Source: Rothia nasimurium (GTDB taxonomy: Bacteria; Actinomycetota; Actinomycetes; Actinomycetales; Micrococcaceae). From it: DNA of 37,436 nt. Shown here one piece after another: positions 3,781 through 37,436 of the stretch. Below the pieces are notes generated by a model that saw nothing but the letters and a program-made list of their open reading frames with translations, ran no database searches and was not told the DNA's origin. The stretch spans positions 1 to 37,436 of the forward strand of contig NZ_SPQC01000028.1 in the NCBI RefSeq assembly GCF_004569295.1, in the 5' to 3' direction. The stretch's first letter is position 1; each line of letters begins with the position of its first letter. The position numbers and the translations under genes were made by a program.

Positions 3781-4710
3781 TTACTTAAGACCGTTGAAGC
3801 CGATGGAGTTCACGATTCGCTTGGCGAAGAACATGAACAGGATAATCATGGGAAGGGCAGCAATCAGGGTTGCGGCCATGAGACCAGCCCAGTCGGTACC
3901 GAGTTGCGGGGATTGAGCGCGGAAGACGCCCAGAGCCACGGTCAGGACGCGGGACTCGTCGGTGTAGGACACCATCAGGGGCCAGAAATAGTCGTTCCAG
4001 GCTGCAATGTAGGTGAGGATACCTAGTGTGGCCATGGGGGCAGTTGCCATAGGCAGGATGACCTTAAAGAAGATACCGATACGGGAGATGCCATCGAGCA
4101 GGGCAGCTTCTTCAATCTCACGGGGAATATTCATGAAGAACTGACGCAGGAAGAAGACTGCAAAGGGGGTCATGAACATCGTTGGTAGGGAGATTCCCAA
4201 GAGGGAATCAATCAGGCCCAGTTCCTTGATGAGGACGAAGTTGGGAAGCAGGGTAAAGATTGAGGGAACCATCAGACCCAGCAAGAAAGCGGCATAGAGA
4301 AAATCGCGGCCGCGAAATTTGAGGCGGGCAAAAGCGTAGGCTGCCATGGCCGAGAAGAAGAGCTGCCCTGCGGTAACCATGGTAGCTACGACAACTGAGT
4401 TGTAGATATAGCGCCAAAAGTTCATGTCGGTGACGGCACCCCCTTCTGCAATTGCTTCTTCAGGAGTCTGTAGACCGAATACTCGTTCAAAACCACCCGT
4501 GGAGAATTCTGCAGGCAGTAAGGAACCCGGATTCTCGTAGAGAGCGGTATTTGTAGAGAGAGCCGTACGAAGCACCCAGTAAAAGGGCAGGATAGTAATC
4601 ACCATAACCAGGATCATGAAGGTCCAGGCGAGAATCTTGCCAACGGGGGACTTTTTCTTGAAGTCCTTCTCCGCGGGGTCCGGTGTGGTGTCTACGGTTG
4701 AAGTAGTCAT
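3781..4710 (-). CDS. Sugar ABC transporter permease (MsmG/MalG-like)
   Basis: This integral-membrane subunit has 309 residues. A polar N-terminal tail is followed by a first membrane helix near 27-47 and about five more helices. The EAA loop that contacts the ATPase reads EIEEAALLDGISRIGIFFKV near residues 197-216. The last residues RIVNSIGFNGLK are typical of MalG-class permeases. AGGAGA precedes the ATG. It pairs with the permease 12 bases upstream on the same strand. Confidence 0.9.
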   Translation of the reverse strand: MTTSTVDTTPDPAEKDFKKKSPVGKILAWTFMILVMVITILPFYWVLRTALSTNTALYENPGSLLPAEFSTGGFERVFGLQTPEEAIAEGGAVTDMNFWRYIYNSVVVATMVTAGQLFFSAMAAYAFARLKFRGRDFLYAAFLLGLMVPSIFTLLPNFVLIKELGLIDSLLGISLPTMFMTPFAVFFLRQFFMNIPREIEEAALLDGISRIGIFFKVILPMATAPMATLGILTYIAAWNDYFWPLMVSYTDESRVLTVALGVFRAQSPQLGTDWAGLMAATLIAALPMIILFMFFAKRIVNSIGFNGLK

Positions 4711-4722
4711 GAGTGTGTTCTC

Positions 4723-5631
4723 CTAGTCCAGATCCGTATCATTGGCGCGAGTTACCTTGAACTGGATGAAGGTAATGATGGCAAGCACTACGAGAAGTGC
4801 TACTGACATTGCTGAGGCGTAACCAAACTGGAAGCGTCCGAAAGCCATATCGTAGATATACATCTGTAGAACGTTGGTAGAGTTCGCAGGGCCACCGCCA
4901 GTGTTGACTGAGACAGTATCGAAGACCTGGAAAGAACCAATAACGGTCATGATAAGGACCAAGGCTAGAATCGGCCGGAGTAGAGGCATCGTGATAGAGA
5001 AGAAGATGTGGGTTTCGCTGGCTCCATCCATGCGGGCTGCTTCATACACCGAGTTCGGCAGGTTCTGTAGGCCAGCAAAGATGAGGAGAGCGGTGTAGCC
5101 CATGTGACGCCACACGTTAATCATGGCGATGGTCGGGATTGCCCAGTTGGGATCGGTGAGAAAACCGATCCGGCCGATACCAATCCATTCAAGAATCTGG
5201 TTTGCGATACCAAATTGGCCATCTAGAATCCAGAGCCAGATAACTGCGGCAACCACATTAGAGACCAGGTAGGGAGAGAGCACCACCGAGCGGACAAAAG
5301 TTGACTGAGTCAACCTGTGCATGAGCACGGCAATCAGCAAGGCCATGATGGTCTGAATACCGATATTGAGTACTACGTACCAGAGGGTGACCCGCATGGC
5401 GTTCCAGAAGAGCGGGTCGCCAAACATACGAGTGTAATTATCAAAGCCAATAAAGGTTGCAGGGGTGAGCAAATTGTATTCTGTAAAGCTCAACCAGATT
5501 CCTCTTACGGTAGGCCACAGAAAGAAAATGACGTAGCCTAGCCCGGCAGGGAAGAGGAAGAGCCATGGAAGCCAGGGCTGCTGTGTTCTAGAGGAAGAAG
5601 ATTTTTTTCTTCCGGTGACCTGTGTACTCAT
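4723..5631 (-). CDS. Sugar ABC transporter permease (MsmF/MalF-like)
   Basis: This is the second membrane subunit of the importer, 302 residues from the chosen start, with about six helices starting at PWLFLFPAGLGYVIFFLWP. The EAA motif reads VYEAARMDGASETHIFFSI in the second half. I chose the ATG at 5631 (MSTQVTGRKK) because AGAGG lies 5 bases upstream; an in-frame start at 5661 has no comparable ribosome site. It follows the alpha-galactosidase gene by about 60 bases and is probably co-transcribed with it. Confidence 0.88.
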   Translation of the reverse strand: MSTQVTGRKKSSSSRTQQPWLPWLFLFPAGLGYVIFFLWPTVRGIWLSFTEYNLLTPATFIGFDNYTRMFGDPLFWNAMRVTLWYVVLNIGIQTIMALLIAVLMHRLTQSTFVRSVVLSPYLVSNVVAAVIWLWILDGQFGIANQILEWIGIGRIGFLTDPNWAIPTIAMINVWRHMGYTALLIFAGLQNLPNSVYEAARMDGASETHIFFSITMPLLRPILALVLIMTVIGSFQVFDTVSVNTGGGPANSTNVLQMYIYDMAFGRFQFGYASAMSVALLVVLAIITFIQFKVTRANDTDLD

Positions 5632-11880: not shown

Positions 11881-11944
11881 TCTGTGGATAACTCCGGGGC
11901 GCCCGGCAGGTTTATGACCGAGCATTGCGAGAGTTATCCACAGA
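11881..11944. repeat. Inverted repeat containing two consensus DnaA-box sequences
   Basis: The 14-base arms TCTGTGGATAACTC (11881-11894) and GAGTTATCCACAGA (11931-11944) are perfect inverted copies, 36 bases apart. Each arm holds the TTATCCACA DnaA-box consensus. The repeat sits in the promoter gap between the small membrane protein and the DUF805 gene, so a regulatory role is as likely as any replication role. Confidence 0.7.
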
Positions 11945-33482: not shown

Positions 33483-34244
33483 ATGAGCACCCTACATATT
33501 GATATGAATTCTGATTCTGGGGAGTCTTTTGGCTCCTGGACCATGGGCGACGACGCTGCGATGATGCAGACCGTCTCTTCAGCCAATATCGCATGCGGTT
33601 TCCACGCGGGTGACCCCTCGGTTGCGCGCACCACCGTGCGGGCGGCACGCGAGAACGGCGTGACGATTGGAGCCCACGTTTCTTACCCTGACCTGGCTGG
33701 TTTTGGCCGCCGGTTCATGGATATGACCGCCACCGAACTCACCGATACGGTGATCTACCAGGTGGGGGCGCTTGAGGCGGTGGCCCGAGTTGAGGGCACC
33801 GAGATTCGCTACTGCAAGCCCCACGGCGGTCTCTACAACGCTATTGTTCACCACGAGGTGCAGGCTGCGGCAGTAGCTCAGGCCCTGCACGAGCTGGGGG
33901 ATCTGCCGATTCTCTGCCTGCCCAACTCCGCGGTTGCCCGTGCGGCTGGTGCCCTGGGCGTTCCTGTTTTTTATGAGGCTTTTGCCGACCGCGGCTACAC
34001 CCCTGAGGGCACCCTGGTATCCCGCCGTGAGGCCGGTGCCGTGATTCACGACCCGCAGGCTGTCGCTGAGCGCGTGGTGCGCATGGCGGTGGACCGCGAA
34101 GTTGTAGCCGTGGACGGCTCGGTTGTGCCCCTGCAGGCCGATAGCATCTGCGTGCACGGCGACACCCCCGGGGCAGTTGCTCTTGCCCGGCAGGTGCGGG
34201 CGGCGCTTGAGGACGCCGGTGCGAACGTCCGCGCCTTTGCCTAG
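33483..34244 (+). CDS. pxpA: 5-oxoprolinase subunit A (LamB/YcsF family)
   Basis: PxpA works with PxpB and PxpC in ATP-dependent opening of 5-oxoproline (pyroglutamate) to glutamate. The 253-residue protein shows the family motifs [15 protein letters not shown] at 5-19, [11 protein letters not shown] near 35-45, [15 protein letters not shown] near 62 and VKPHGGLYN-like CKPHGGLYN near 110, with CVHGDTPGA near the end. The ATG at 33483 is close to a GGCGGTAGG stretch that gives only a modest ribosome site. Its partners lie 1.4 kb downstream, beyond an unrelated nuclease-like gene. Confidence 0.92.
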
Positions 34245-34283
34245 GTAGGCGGGGGGGCGGCGTCCTACCCCCACTGCCCTGCC

Positions 34284-34348
34284 GAATGCGACGTGTTTTC
34301 CCGAGCGGGTGTTGCTTTAACGCCCGCTTGGGAATTCAAGTCACATTC
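34284..34348. repeat. 65-bp palindromic element, copy 1
   Basis: The element begins GAATGCGAC and ends GTCACATTC and folds into one long imperfect hairpin; the inner arms CCCGAGCGGGTGTT and AACGCCCGCTTGGG pair with two G-T wobbles. The stop codon of the nuclease-like gene lies inside it. An inverted copy is at 35456-35520. It may also end transcription of pxpA. Confidence 0.75.
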
Positions 34349-35261
34349 GATGACGCGGGCCTTCACAAATTCCAGCCCTCGCCAACTTTGCACGCAGACG
34401 CTCAGGGTGTACCACAATGTCTTCCCATAAAGCGCGCACCACAGTATACCCCATGCTCTCTAATTCGTGCTGACGACGACGCTCGTTCTGAACCACGTTC
34501 TCTGCAGCTTCACCAAAAGTACCCGCATACTTGACCTTCCCATCAACTTCTAAAATGACCCGCTCTTTCTCCCACAAAAAGTCAGGTCGCAGAGTTCTTC
34601 CACCAACCCATAAAGGCACCTGTTCTGCAGGCGGCGCAAGACCCCACATCAGAATCCAATATCGAGCAACAGTCTCCAGCGGTGACTCCGCTTTTGCGCT
34701 CATCAAACGAGCCACCTCACGCGCAGTACAAACACCACGACCGCTTAACTCTCTCAAGCACTGGGCTAAAACCTCATAATCCACCAGTCGGCAATGCAAA
34801 AAGTAATCGGCAATGCAGAGGGCATCAATAATCGGAAGCGTCCGCGCGCAATCGATAGCCGTCTGCAGCGGCGCCGTCACACGGGCTCCCCGATGGAACA
34901 CTGCACTGTCGCATTCCTTCTGCCGGTTGCGGCTGACCTGCACCTGCCCTCGAGATTTGACTGAATCGTGCGGATGGCTCACCCATATTTTGTGCGGTAA
35001 CCGCAGCACAGGGGCACCCCACCAGAGAGCAGCAGACACATGGCTTAACACATACCCCCGATTTGTTTTCATGAAAGCCACATGCCCGGCTAGACACCTA
35101 TCGGTATTGCTTAGTGACTCCCATAAAGCTGTCTTTATATAGGCATTATGACCGATTTTAAAGAGCTCTCCCCTGGTGAATTCGCGGCTTACACCGGAAG
35201 TGCTCTTACCCAGGTGTCTAAGCTCAACCGAAGTTTTAACAGTCTCAAACAAGTGTTCCAT
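34341..35261 (-). CDS. AbiEi-like / DUF559 protein with PD-(D/E)XK nuclease-type C-terminus
   Basis: A 306-residue protein of the actinobacterial type with an AbiEi-like N-terminal part (winged helix region near 10-55, then YVLSHVSAALWWGAPVLRLP) and a DUF559/Vsr-like C-terminal domain. In the latter, ESPLETVARYW near 195, RPDFLWEKE near 226 and VILEVDGKVKY near 233-243 give the Glu, Asp and Glu-x-Lys pattern of PD-(D/E)XK folds, and YTVVRALWEDI follows. The ATG at 35261 has no clear ribosome site. It interrupts the pxp genes on the opposite strand and is flanked by inverted 65-bp elements. No antitoxin or toxin partner is adjacent. A defence or DNA-processing role is only a guess. Confidence 0.75.
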   Translation of the reverse strand: MEHLFETVKTSVELRHLGKSTSGVSREFTRGELFKIGHNAYIKTALWESLSNTDRCLAGHVAFMKTNRGYVLSHVSAALWWGAPVLRLPHKIWVSHPHDSVKSRGQVQVSRNRQKECDSAVFHRGARVTAPLQTAIDCARTLPIIDALCIADYFLHCRLVDYEVLAQCLRELSGRGVCTAREVARLMSAKAESPLETVARYWILMWGLAPPAEQVPLWVGGRTLRPDFLWEKERVILEVDGKVKYAGTFGEAAENVVQNERRRQHELESMGYTVVRALWEDIVVHPERLRAKLARAGICEGPRHRM

Positions 35262-35308
35262 GGGTTAAAAATGCCCTATTACAGTGCGTCTCTACTAGCC
35301 GTTTTCTA

Positions 35309-35399
35309 CTATCTGTGGATAACTTTGAGGCCTAGCTGCGGAGGTTTGCTCAGGGCGAGAAGTATGACGTCAGTGCGTCAAAGTTTTCCACAGAAATAG
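35309..35399. repeat. Second inverted repeat with DnaA-box-like arms
   Basis: CTATCTGTGGATAACTTTGA (35309-35328) is mirrored by TCAAAGTTTTCCACAG... at 35378-35399, with one mismatch and one extra base. The left arm has a perfect TTATCCACA box on the minus strand, the right arm TTTTCCACA. It resembles the repeat at 11881-11944 and lies upstream of the nuclease-like gene. Confidence 0.6.
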
Positions 35400-35455
35400 A
35401 GCCGTTGAGCGGCGCTTACCCCGGCACAGAGCACTCCAGAAATAGCTTCACCACC

Positions 35456-35520
35456 GAATGCGACTCATCTTCCCAAAAGGACGTTAAAACAACACCCGCT
35501 CGGGAAAACAAGTCGCACTC
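35456..35520. repeat. 65-bp palindromic element, copy 2 (inverted)
   Basis: The reverse complement of this segment aligns without gaps to 34284-34348; the stretch TTTTCCCGAGCGGGTGTTG is identical. The two copies bracket the nuclease-like gene and its upstream region as a unit of about 1.24 kb. Confidence 0.75.
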
Positions 35521-35671
35521 GCCAGAGAGAACAGCTACGATGCGGCGCAGCTTGCGTGGGCGGCGCCACATCTGCCAGAATTGTTGAACAATCCTGAGCG
35601 GTGGCTGAGAGCTCTCCGTTTACTCCAACCACCGACAGGCCGTTCAGCACAACCGGGCAGAGAGGGGCGCC

Positions 35672-37436
35672 ATGACCACCGCGCATACACCCAGCGGGCG
35701 CACACCCAGCAGGCAGGCCGCCACCATCTATACGGTCAAGCCCTTCGGCCTACTAGCCGTTATGGTTGACTGCCGCACCCTCGAAAACGCCCTGCACCTG
35801 CACGGCCACCTGCAACAACACCCCGCCTCAGGGCAGACCGAGCTGGTCCCGGCAGCCCAAACCGTGCTCGTCCGCTTCGAAACCGCCCAGCAGGCCGCTG
35901 ACTTTCTTGCCGAGCCCAACCTGCCGCAGGCGTCCGGAGATGTGCGCACCCACGGCCGCACGGTTACCATCCCGGTCGTCTACGACGGCCAGGACCTCAC
36001 CGACGTCGCCACCCACCTGGGCATAAGCGAGCAGGCGGTAATCTACGCCCACACCACAGGGCACTGGTCAGTTGCCTTCGCGGGCTTCGCCCCAGGCTTC
36101 TTCTACCTGCACCGGCACGATAATATGCTGGACGTTCCCCGCCGCCCCACCCCGCGCACCTCAGTTCCTGCCGGTGCTGTTGGCCTGGCAGGTGACTTCT
36201 CGGGCATCTACCCGCGCACCTCCCCCGGCGGCTGGCAGCTCATTGGCCGCACAAATGCGCCCCTCTGGGACCTCACTCAAAATCCGCCCGCCCTGCTAGA
36301 GCCCGGTATGCAGGTACAGTTCGAGGCGGTGCGGGAGCTCATTACAGCAGGTCAGGCAGGGGTTCAGGACGCTCCCGCCCCAGCCCAGCAGCCTCGGGCA
36401 GGTTCGCGCCCGGTTAGCTCCGGGCAGACGGACGGCCCCACCCCGGCTCCCAGCGAGGTGCTGGAGGTTAAAAGCCCCGGCCTGCTGACCCTCTTCCAGG
36501 ATTCCGGCCGAGCGGGGCTGACCCACTGGGGTGTCTCTCCTTCCGGCCCAGCCGACCGGGAAGCGGCAGCCGAAGCTAACCGCTTGGTCGGTAACTGCGC
36601 GGGTGCTACCGTTCTTGAGAACCTGGCTGGCGGGCTAAAAATTACCGCTCTAGCCGACGCAGAGTTGGCCCTGACCGGGGCAGATACCCCGGCGCAGATA
36701 ACCGAGGGCGCCAACGGGCAGGCCGCTAACCCCGGGCAGGGCGCAGCTCAGGCAACAGACACCCCTCTGGCCGTTCGCCCCTACGCCCCCTTTGCCCTGA
36801 AGCCCGGGCAGACCCTGACCCTGGGGGCACCCGCACGCGGTGTGCGTACCTATCTTGCGGTGCGCGGCGGGTTTGCCGCTAGAACCGAGGCGGCTAGCGC
36901 CTCCCGCGACACCCTGGCCGGGCTGGGCCCGAAGCCGCTGGCGGCCGGTGAGAGGCTCTCACTGGCAAGCCTGCCGGTGGCGGTGGTGGCTGACCCGGCA
37001 CCCGTCCTACCCCTGCCGAAACTGGGCAGGGTGCTGGAGGTCCGCGCCCTGCCCGGCCCCCGCGACGACTGGTTTACACCCGAGTCTCTGAGTCGTTTCG
37101 CCGAGGTGACCTGGGAGGTCTCCCAGTCCAGTGACCGCATTGGGGTCAGGCTCCTGCTGGCAGATACCCCAGCCGACGGGGGTGCAGGCACCCAGCCCAC
37201 CAACCTCCAGCCCGCCGATATCCTCACCCGGGCCGTGACCCGGGAGCTGCCCAGCGAGGGCATGGTGGCGGGGGCAGTCCAGGTGCCGCCGAGCGGTGAG
37301 CCCGTGGTCTTCCTAGCCGACCACCCGGTCACCGGCGGCTACCCCGTCATTGCCACGGTGCACCCGGCTGACCTGCGCCTACTGGCCCAGGCACCGCCCG
37401 GCACCCGTCTGCGCTTCACCCCGCTAACTCCACCCC
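35672..37436 (+). CDS. pxpB/pxpC: Fused 5-oxoprolinase subunits B and C, 3' end beyond window
   Basis: The frame from ATG 35672 (GAGGGG upstream) is open to the window end, 588 codons. The N-terminal half is PxpB/KipI-like: WSVAFAGFAPGFFYL near 141, DVPRRPTPRTSVPAGAVGLA near 163 and IYPRTSPGGWQLIGRT near 187. A Pro/Ala/Gln/Gly-rich linker of about 40 residues (about 225-265) leads to the PxpC/KipA-like carboxyltransferase part: GLLTLFQDSGRAGLTHWGVS near 270, QSSDRIGVRL-like SQSSDRIGVRL and VPPSGEPVVFLADHPVTGGY near the end. In many bacteria the subunits are separate genes. The final residues RFTPLTPP suggest that only a few codons are missing. Confidence 0.9.
   Translation, partial: MTTAHTPSGRTPSRQAATIYTVKPFGLLAVMVDCRTLENALHLHGHLQQHPASGQTELVPAAQTVLVRFETAQQAADFLAEPNLPQASGDVRTHGRTVTIPVVYDGQDLTDVATHLGISEQAVIYAHTTGHWSVAFAGFAPGFFYLHRHDNMLDVPRRPTPRTSVPAGAVGLAGDFSGIYPRTSPGGWQLIGRTNAPLWDLTQNPPALLEPGMQVQFEAVRELITAGQAGVQDAPAPAQQPRAGSRPVSSGQTDGPTPAPSEVLEVKSPGLLTLFQDSGRAGLTHWGVSPSGPADREAAAEANRLVGNCAGATVLENLAGGLKITALADAELALTGADTPAQITEGANGQAANPGQGAAQATDTPLAVRPYAPFALKPGQTLTLGAPARGVRTYLAVRGGFAARTEAASASRDTLAGLGPKPLAAGERLSLASLPVAVVADPAPVLPLPKLGRVLEVRALPGPRDDWFTPESLSRFAEVTWEVSQSSDRIGVRLLLADTPADGGAGTQPTNLQPADILTRAVTRELPSEGMVAGAVQVPPSGEPVVFLADHPVTGGYPVIATVHPADLRLLAQAPPGTRLRFTPLTPP

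Follow-up and report, generated by a model that had tools for sequence, protein, structure and literature searches.

Single-gene cassettes of an AbiEi-like nuclease between lineage-specific palindromes in Rothia and other Actinomycetota

Known palindrome partners and the Rothia unit

Repetitive extragenic palindromic (REP) repeats have long been known, and the REP-associated tyrosine transposases (RAYTs) are the enzymes tied to them. In the accessible parts of two accounts, a RAYT gene is flanked by REP palindromes while further REPs lie dispersed (PMC3733652, PMC8049555), and the REPs of the GTAG group carry a GTAG tag (PMC3733652). The window analyzed here, 37,436 nucleotides of Rothia nasimurium (contig NZ_SPQC01000028.1, which is contig 48 of a 2.69 Mb genome in 127 contigs), holds a unit of the same layout built around a different enzyme: a gene for an AbiEi-like, Vsr-like protein enclosed by two palindromes. 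Single-gene elements of this kind form a large family in actinobacteria, to which the unit belongs.

The likeness to the REPtrons and TIRtrons formed by RAYT genes covers several features. In both, an enzyme gene sits between cognate palindromes, several types share a genome, solo palindromes are dispersed and the enzyme is conserved; copies of one Rothia palindrome, type A, are mostly GTAG-tagged, and most cassettes have no GTAG near their outer ends. RAYTs, however, are HUH tyrosine transposases, whereas the window protein is predicted to join an AbiEi antitoxin fold (residues 6-188 of a structure model) to a nuclease domain resembling Vsr and the homing endonuclease I-Bth0305I (residues 191-300). 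Because the enzyme differs, the family is not a member of the RAYT systems, though it may work like one.

Three other systems resemble parts of the unit. AbiEi of the AbiE type IV toxin-antitoxin system negatively autoregulates through inverted repeats, as the available portion of PMC3985639 describes, and binds two 23-bp inverted repeats spaced 3 bp apart; the shorter palindromes of the present family come near that size (49 bp at locus L322). Unlike AbiE, the Rothia unit contains no AbiEii toxin gene at the window locus, where one long open reading frame (ORF) lies between pxp-type neighbors; it has an additional nuclease domain, and its palindromes occur on both sides of the gene and elsewhere. 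From I-Bth0305I, a Vsr-like homing endonuclease, the unit differs in two ways: it does not interrupt a single target but has a complete palindrome on each side, and its DNA-recognition part is AbiEi-like. The Vsr, DUF559 and MTES_1575 restriction endonuclease (REase) families share the nuclease fold and have no link to cognate palindromes in the publications found. A literature search, with most subscription papers and bioRxiv outside its range, returned no account in which DUF559 or AbiEi-type genes are paired with cognate palindromes, in agreement with the first-pass annotation of the window, which knew of none.

That annotation had seen a nuclease-fold gene between two ungapped, hairpin-forming palindromic copies, and this observation is confirmed and holds more widely than the window alone could show. 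The gene occupies 34341..35261 on the minus strand (306 aa, stop codon at 34341-34343), and its last codons overlap the downstream palindrome at 34282..34349 (arm 34279-34352); the upstream palindrome lies at 35454..35521 (arm 35452-35525). The two copies align without gaps, being 82% complementary over 74 nt when inverted and 71% identical over 68 nt when compared directly. Each is itself palindromic; they are among six palindromes that one scan threshold returns for the window, while each of three shuffled windows gave 0. As single strands both fold more stably than dinucleotide shuffles (z -6.4/-5.2 and -3.0/-5.1 for the two strands).

Bracketing and the pairing of gene with palindrome

Fifty-nine genomes were searched with the window element and the window protein. 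Forty-nine of them contain relatives of the protein, and nine Rothia nasimurium-like genomes have 6-13 matches each. Five near relatives (92-97% identity) come from three records labeled Rothia nasimurium, one labeled Candidatus Rothia avicola and one labeled Rothia sp. At 107 places, mostly stronger matches, the surroundings were examined. Within the genus, 84 of 87 loci are bracketed by a matching palindrome pair at E<=0.01, 82 at 1e-3 and 79 at 1e-5; for other genera the counts are 17, 16 and 16 of 20. Other ORFs of the same loci served as controls, and only 2/205 were bracketed at 1e-3, neither being a family member. Grouping at 60% protein identity gives 49 lineages, 43 of which include a bracketed member. 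A wider search of the phylum found matching pairs around 15 of 29 loci at E<=1e-5, including some loci outside the class (the control ORFs cover only the 107 loci, and the 15/29 includes L294 and L295, genes already counted); at E<=0.01 it gave 20 matches, of which L311, where one palindrome matched itself, and four weak ones were set aside. Three genus loci have no matching pair: at L118 palindromes stand on both sides with a match below threshold, and at L065 and L108 there is no palindrome nearby. Separately, locus L132 (G015) shows a transporter-like, non-nuclease ORF by translation (3980-5290 in gene orientation) inside a 65-bp pair 91% alike.

In 98 bracketed pairs the downstream element begins a median of 5 bp past the stop codon, more than 90% of the elements are self-palindromic by the score used, and the median unit length of 1212 bp leaves little space for a second gene. 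The first-pass annotation had described the copies as inverted and as possible transposition ends. The former holds for the window pair, which aligns better inverted, and fails as a rule: inverted alignment is better in 47 pairs, direct alignment in 46, and 5 are ties, as expected if each element is itself palindromic. With no fixed orientation, the terminal inverted repeats of a classical transposon or insertion sequence are rejected.

Ordinary transcription terminators, or general repeats that flank the gene by chance, might also produce such an arrangement, and long palindromes do stand at other gene ends in these genomes. This explanation is very improbable and already contradicted: the control ORFs are hardly ever bracketed, each cassette has a matching pair of palindromes distinct from those of other cassettes, and a terminator scan of window positions 34200-35700 found none at either palindrome. 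It was rejected on these grounds.

A tie between gene and element emerges from comparing sequences across all pairs among 93 bracketed cassettes (orthologues included, so that pairs are not independent). Palindromes are alike in 128/128 pairs at >=60% protein identity, in 2/86 at 50-60% and in 0/4064 below 50%. Each lineage has its own palindrome sequence, nearly equal on both sides of the gene. Below 75% identity, palindrome and protein similarity show only small negative correlations and point to no specificity region.

The protein itself is recognized by several profiles. DUF559 matches the C-terminus of the window protein just above the Pfam cut-off (22.3 against 20.6 bits), the PADLOC AbiEi profiles match as well, and 17-18 of 32 family members match Pfam DUF559 and MTES_1575. 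The six Pfam families matched by these 32 members at E<=0.01 include no transposase; scans for families and matches of the fold point to AbiEi and Vsr/REase, not to an HUH Y1 tyrosine transposase. The nearest catalytic fold to the model is that of I-Bth0305I. Acidic active-site residues are invariant, and a ratio of nonsynonymous to synonymous substitution rates (dN/dS) of ~0.1 indicates purifying selection. A homing-endonuclease-type fold with a conserved active site is thus present, as judged by fold similarity and conservation.

Solo palindromes and variable sites

Sequence searches also find the palindromes away from any cassette. The 68-bp window element occurs in 9/59 genomes, all of the same genus. 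Six of these carry an intact window gene and G027 a broken one, while G011 and G013 have no such gene at the site. This links the element to the gene family, as the first-pass annotation had anticipated. The broken gene, at L074 (G027:C4:2276552-2283506), is an orthologue of the window cassette with 281 bp lost inside the gene and both palindromes kept.

Two other palindromes also have dispersed copies. Type A, that of the cassette at L069/L093, gives 16-65 matches per genome in 8 relatives (about two per copy since both strands match, with cassette and flank matches counted in). Thirty-seven copies align ungapped over 69 columns with sharp ends, and their stem changes are paired: 28 cells are changed on both sides against 9.7 in shuffles, and 0/500 shuffles reach 28, a count that is no probability because the copies are related. 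For type B, a first look counted 9-24 stretches per genome in 8 genomes, a figure that takes in the cassette copies; G005 and G017, which pair in a concatenated tree (support 0.84; block trees conflict), gave no match at E<=1e-8. Copies of a third type (L091) are few, and neither G005 nor G020 has a match to it. With bracketing and pairing, these solos bear out for the whole family the likeness to REP elements with a dedicated enzyme that had been suggested for the window. At L230 (G005:C6:52300-56200), two nearly identical palindromes of type A enclose a HipA gene and its helix-turn-helix partner (by Pfam), so that palindrome pairs can come to surround other genes too.

Conceivably, another enzyme such as a RAYT spreads the palindromes, and the role of the nuclease is to police or exploit them. 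Of 37 type A copies, 30 end in GTAG on one side, much as in the GTAG-group REPs of PMC3733652, so far as the accessible text describes them, and for 5 of the 8 genomes with type B copies no B cassette was seen among the loci fetched. We consider this distinctly improbable, since palindrome type tracks the protein cassette by cassette, GTAG lies near an outer end of only 7/82 genus cassettes (75/82 are without it), and each unit has one long gene.

The window unit separates a pxpA-like gene upstream (33483..34244, plus strand, LamB_YcsF by Pfam) from a pxpBC-like frame downstream (35672..37435, plus strand, fused CT_C_D and CT_A_B, running off the window); we take these Pfam families to be the equivalents of pxpA and pxpBC. 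The first-pass annotation, which had noted this separation, proposed a search for an empty junction, and one was found in G011 and G013: the junction is ~1.28 kb shorter, pxpA and pxpBC adjoin, and there is no palindrome. The missing stretch, 34263..35541, comprises the unit with some 16-20 bp beyond the palindrome on either side. Both borders of this one empty site, where the direction of the event is ambiguous, share a sequence of about 5 bp (CGGCG) that falls short of a clear target-site duplication. Loss is the simpler reading at this site, since G005 has the unit and G011 and G013 are sisters in the concatenated tree, if G005/G017 is the outgroup. In G017 pxpA and pxpBC are several kb apart, and the short remains of a family gene lie next to pxpA in the opposite orientation (G017:C4:214781-214906, 57% over 42 residues, one stop). 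Three other length differences of 1.2-1.3 kb between relatives read as host coding sequence and were discarded as cassettes.

Other sites, as read from alignments, are polymorphic in type as well as in occupancy. The L093 site carries cassette A in G000, G002 and G017, cassette B instead in G011, G013 and G026, and a single type B palindrome in G020, G027 and G028 (G005 is unreadable). Reading the alignment by eye, the solo in G027/G028 starts as the left palindrome of cassette B and continues as the right-hand part of the right one; the solo in G020 has its switch point further left. A slot beside a Na+/H+ antiporter gene is of type A in G005, G013 and G017, of type B in G002, G011, G020, G026 and G027, holds a short remnant in G000 and has no palindrome in G028. 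Most positions are stable: 730 comparisons between relatives, not independent and with cassette palindromes included, show the same type in place in 701, another palindrome in 14, nothing in 12 and other states in 3. With loss simpler at the window site, the earlier proposal that the unit itself is mobile is not supported.

These site states bear on whether the cassette is a homing element proper, in which the solo is a vacant target that the nuclease breaks, whereupon repair off a cassette-bearing chromosome copies the gene in, giving palindrome-gene-palindrome. The catalytic fold closest to the model is that of a homing endonuclease, the solo in other species joins the outer parts of the two palindromes found where the site is filled, and the cassette present at that one site varies between species. 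Homing is nonetheless unlikely: a filled site retains two whole palindromes, no genome has several cassettes of one type among the loci fetched despite many solos, and the empty site corresponding to the window is without a palindrome.

A possible partnership and a possible link to DnaA

The explanation we prefer, and hold tentatively, is a REPtron-like partnership of a dedicated nuclease with its cognate palindrome in which the enzyme is unlike RAYTs. By analogy with the binding of AbiEi to its inverted repeats, the AbiEi module would recognize the palindrome of its own cassette. The nuclease would then nick or cut the palindrome, perhaps as a hairpin extruded at the replication fork, and repair might copy palindromes, and rarely a whole cassette, to other sites, or turn one site state into another. 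A solo would remain when the palindromes of one cassette recombine with each other, and DnaA boxes in the leader could tie expression to replication. What the sequences show directly is the layout, the pairing of gene and palindrome, the scattered solos, the variable sites, the conserved active-site residues under purifying selection and the DnaA-box motif.

Several points weigh against this partnership. Binding and cutting of the palindrome by the protein are predictions, as is any spread caused by it; the fold matches of the model are moderate, and NCBIfam applies an AbiEi label to only 1 of the 32 members. Since both palindromes of a cassette are complete, the cassette itself would be open to cutting by a simple homing enzyme. 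GTAG at the ends of type A copies, a tag of RAYT-moved REPs, may leave room for a RAYT, and type B copies are found where no B cassette was seen. Positions are mostly conserved and no new solo was traced to a cassette; loss is the simpler reading at the window site. Homologous recombination would explain the hybrid solos with their differing switch points without a nuclease, and since block trees conflict, recombination between species explains part of the patchiness.

If the partnership holds, a second, unrelated enzyme class would share the repeat-enzyme architecture, implying that such partnerships arose independently. The many cognate protein-palindrome pairs within one genus would make recognition testable and would provide a first testable role for a large group known only as 'AbiEi antitoxin' or 'DUF559', with several members per Rothia genome. 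A broader proposal is possible yet doubtful: that these are selfish or domesticated elements throughout the Actinomycetota in which an AbiEi antitoxin joined to a Vsr-type homing nuclease co-evolves with a palindromic operator that is also a mobile REP-like repeat, with its firing timed to replication by DnaA.

The suggestion of a replication link comes from the leaders. As the first-pass annotation had recognized, the window leader has an inverted repeat of its own, located at 35312..35396 (TGTGGATAACTTTGA ... TCAAAGTTTTCCACA) and built around two DnaA-box-like 9-mers, TGTGGATAA and TTTTCCACA. The proximal motif, TTATCCACAG, lies at 35313..35322 on the minus strand, ~-60 from the start codon, and the distal one, TTTTCCACAG, at 35384..35393 on the plus strand. 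TTWTCCACA, which we take to be the DnaA-box consensus, occurs in 62/84 genus leaders and 22/28 lineages, against 2/232 regions upstream of other ORFs, 20/8400 resampled leaders, 0/84 leaders for the reversed pattern and 0/1235 random, mostly coding segments of the same loci. Counting also TTNTCCACA and the left palindrome, 69/84 genus leaders and 6/17 in other genera carry a motif. TTWTCCACAG occurs 45 times in the genome of the window against 3 for the reversed pattern, and 7 of the 45 sites lie, by coordinates, upstream of 5 cassette genes. Since the same 9-mers stand upstream of dnaA (L361, with dnaA by Pfam; G020 and G027, with dnaA by similarity), the leader motif is very probably the host DnaA box. 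The motifs suggest that DnaA may control the cassettes; such a tie to the control of replication would be unexpected for elements of this kind.

The same leaders would suit a resident, non-mobile regulator whose palindromes are operators or insulators for self-control and for a small regulon of solo sites, with a nuclease serving defense or DNA repair. AbiEi represses its own promoter through inverted repeats in the part of PMC3985639 available to us; purifying selection, conserved positions and the DnaA motifs fit as well, and distant matches to the window protein appear in just 3/72,556 plasmid and 1/50,697 phage records. We regard a resident regulator as fairly improbable, because it leaves unexplained the second palindrome just past the stop codon, the turnover of types at one site and the contrast in type B between 9-24 and no copies in related genomes.

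DnaA-box-like motifs and dnaA itself appear in a few further contexts. Away from the unit, window positions 11882-11943 contain two TTATCCACAG motifs in inverted orientation, 42 bp apart, and at L358 (G000:C116:24066-24360) four TTATCCACA boxes fall within 300 bp inside a 393-aa ORF of no recognized kind. In G020 and G027, where dnaA is at contig position 1, window-type elements lie within 260 kb of dnaA in 4/4 and 5/5 cases (one a partial match), as do 10/12 and 7/10 of the type B elements among the matches listed (~21% expected), and 2/7 type A elements, which show no such proximity; the cut-off was chosen after seeing the data, and the sites are partly common to both species.
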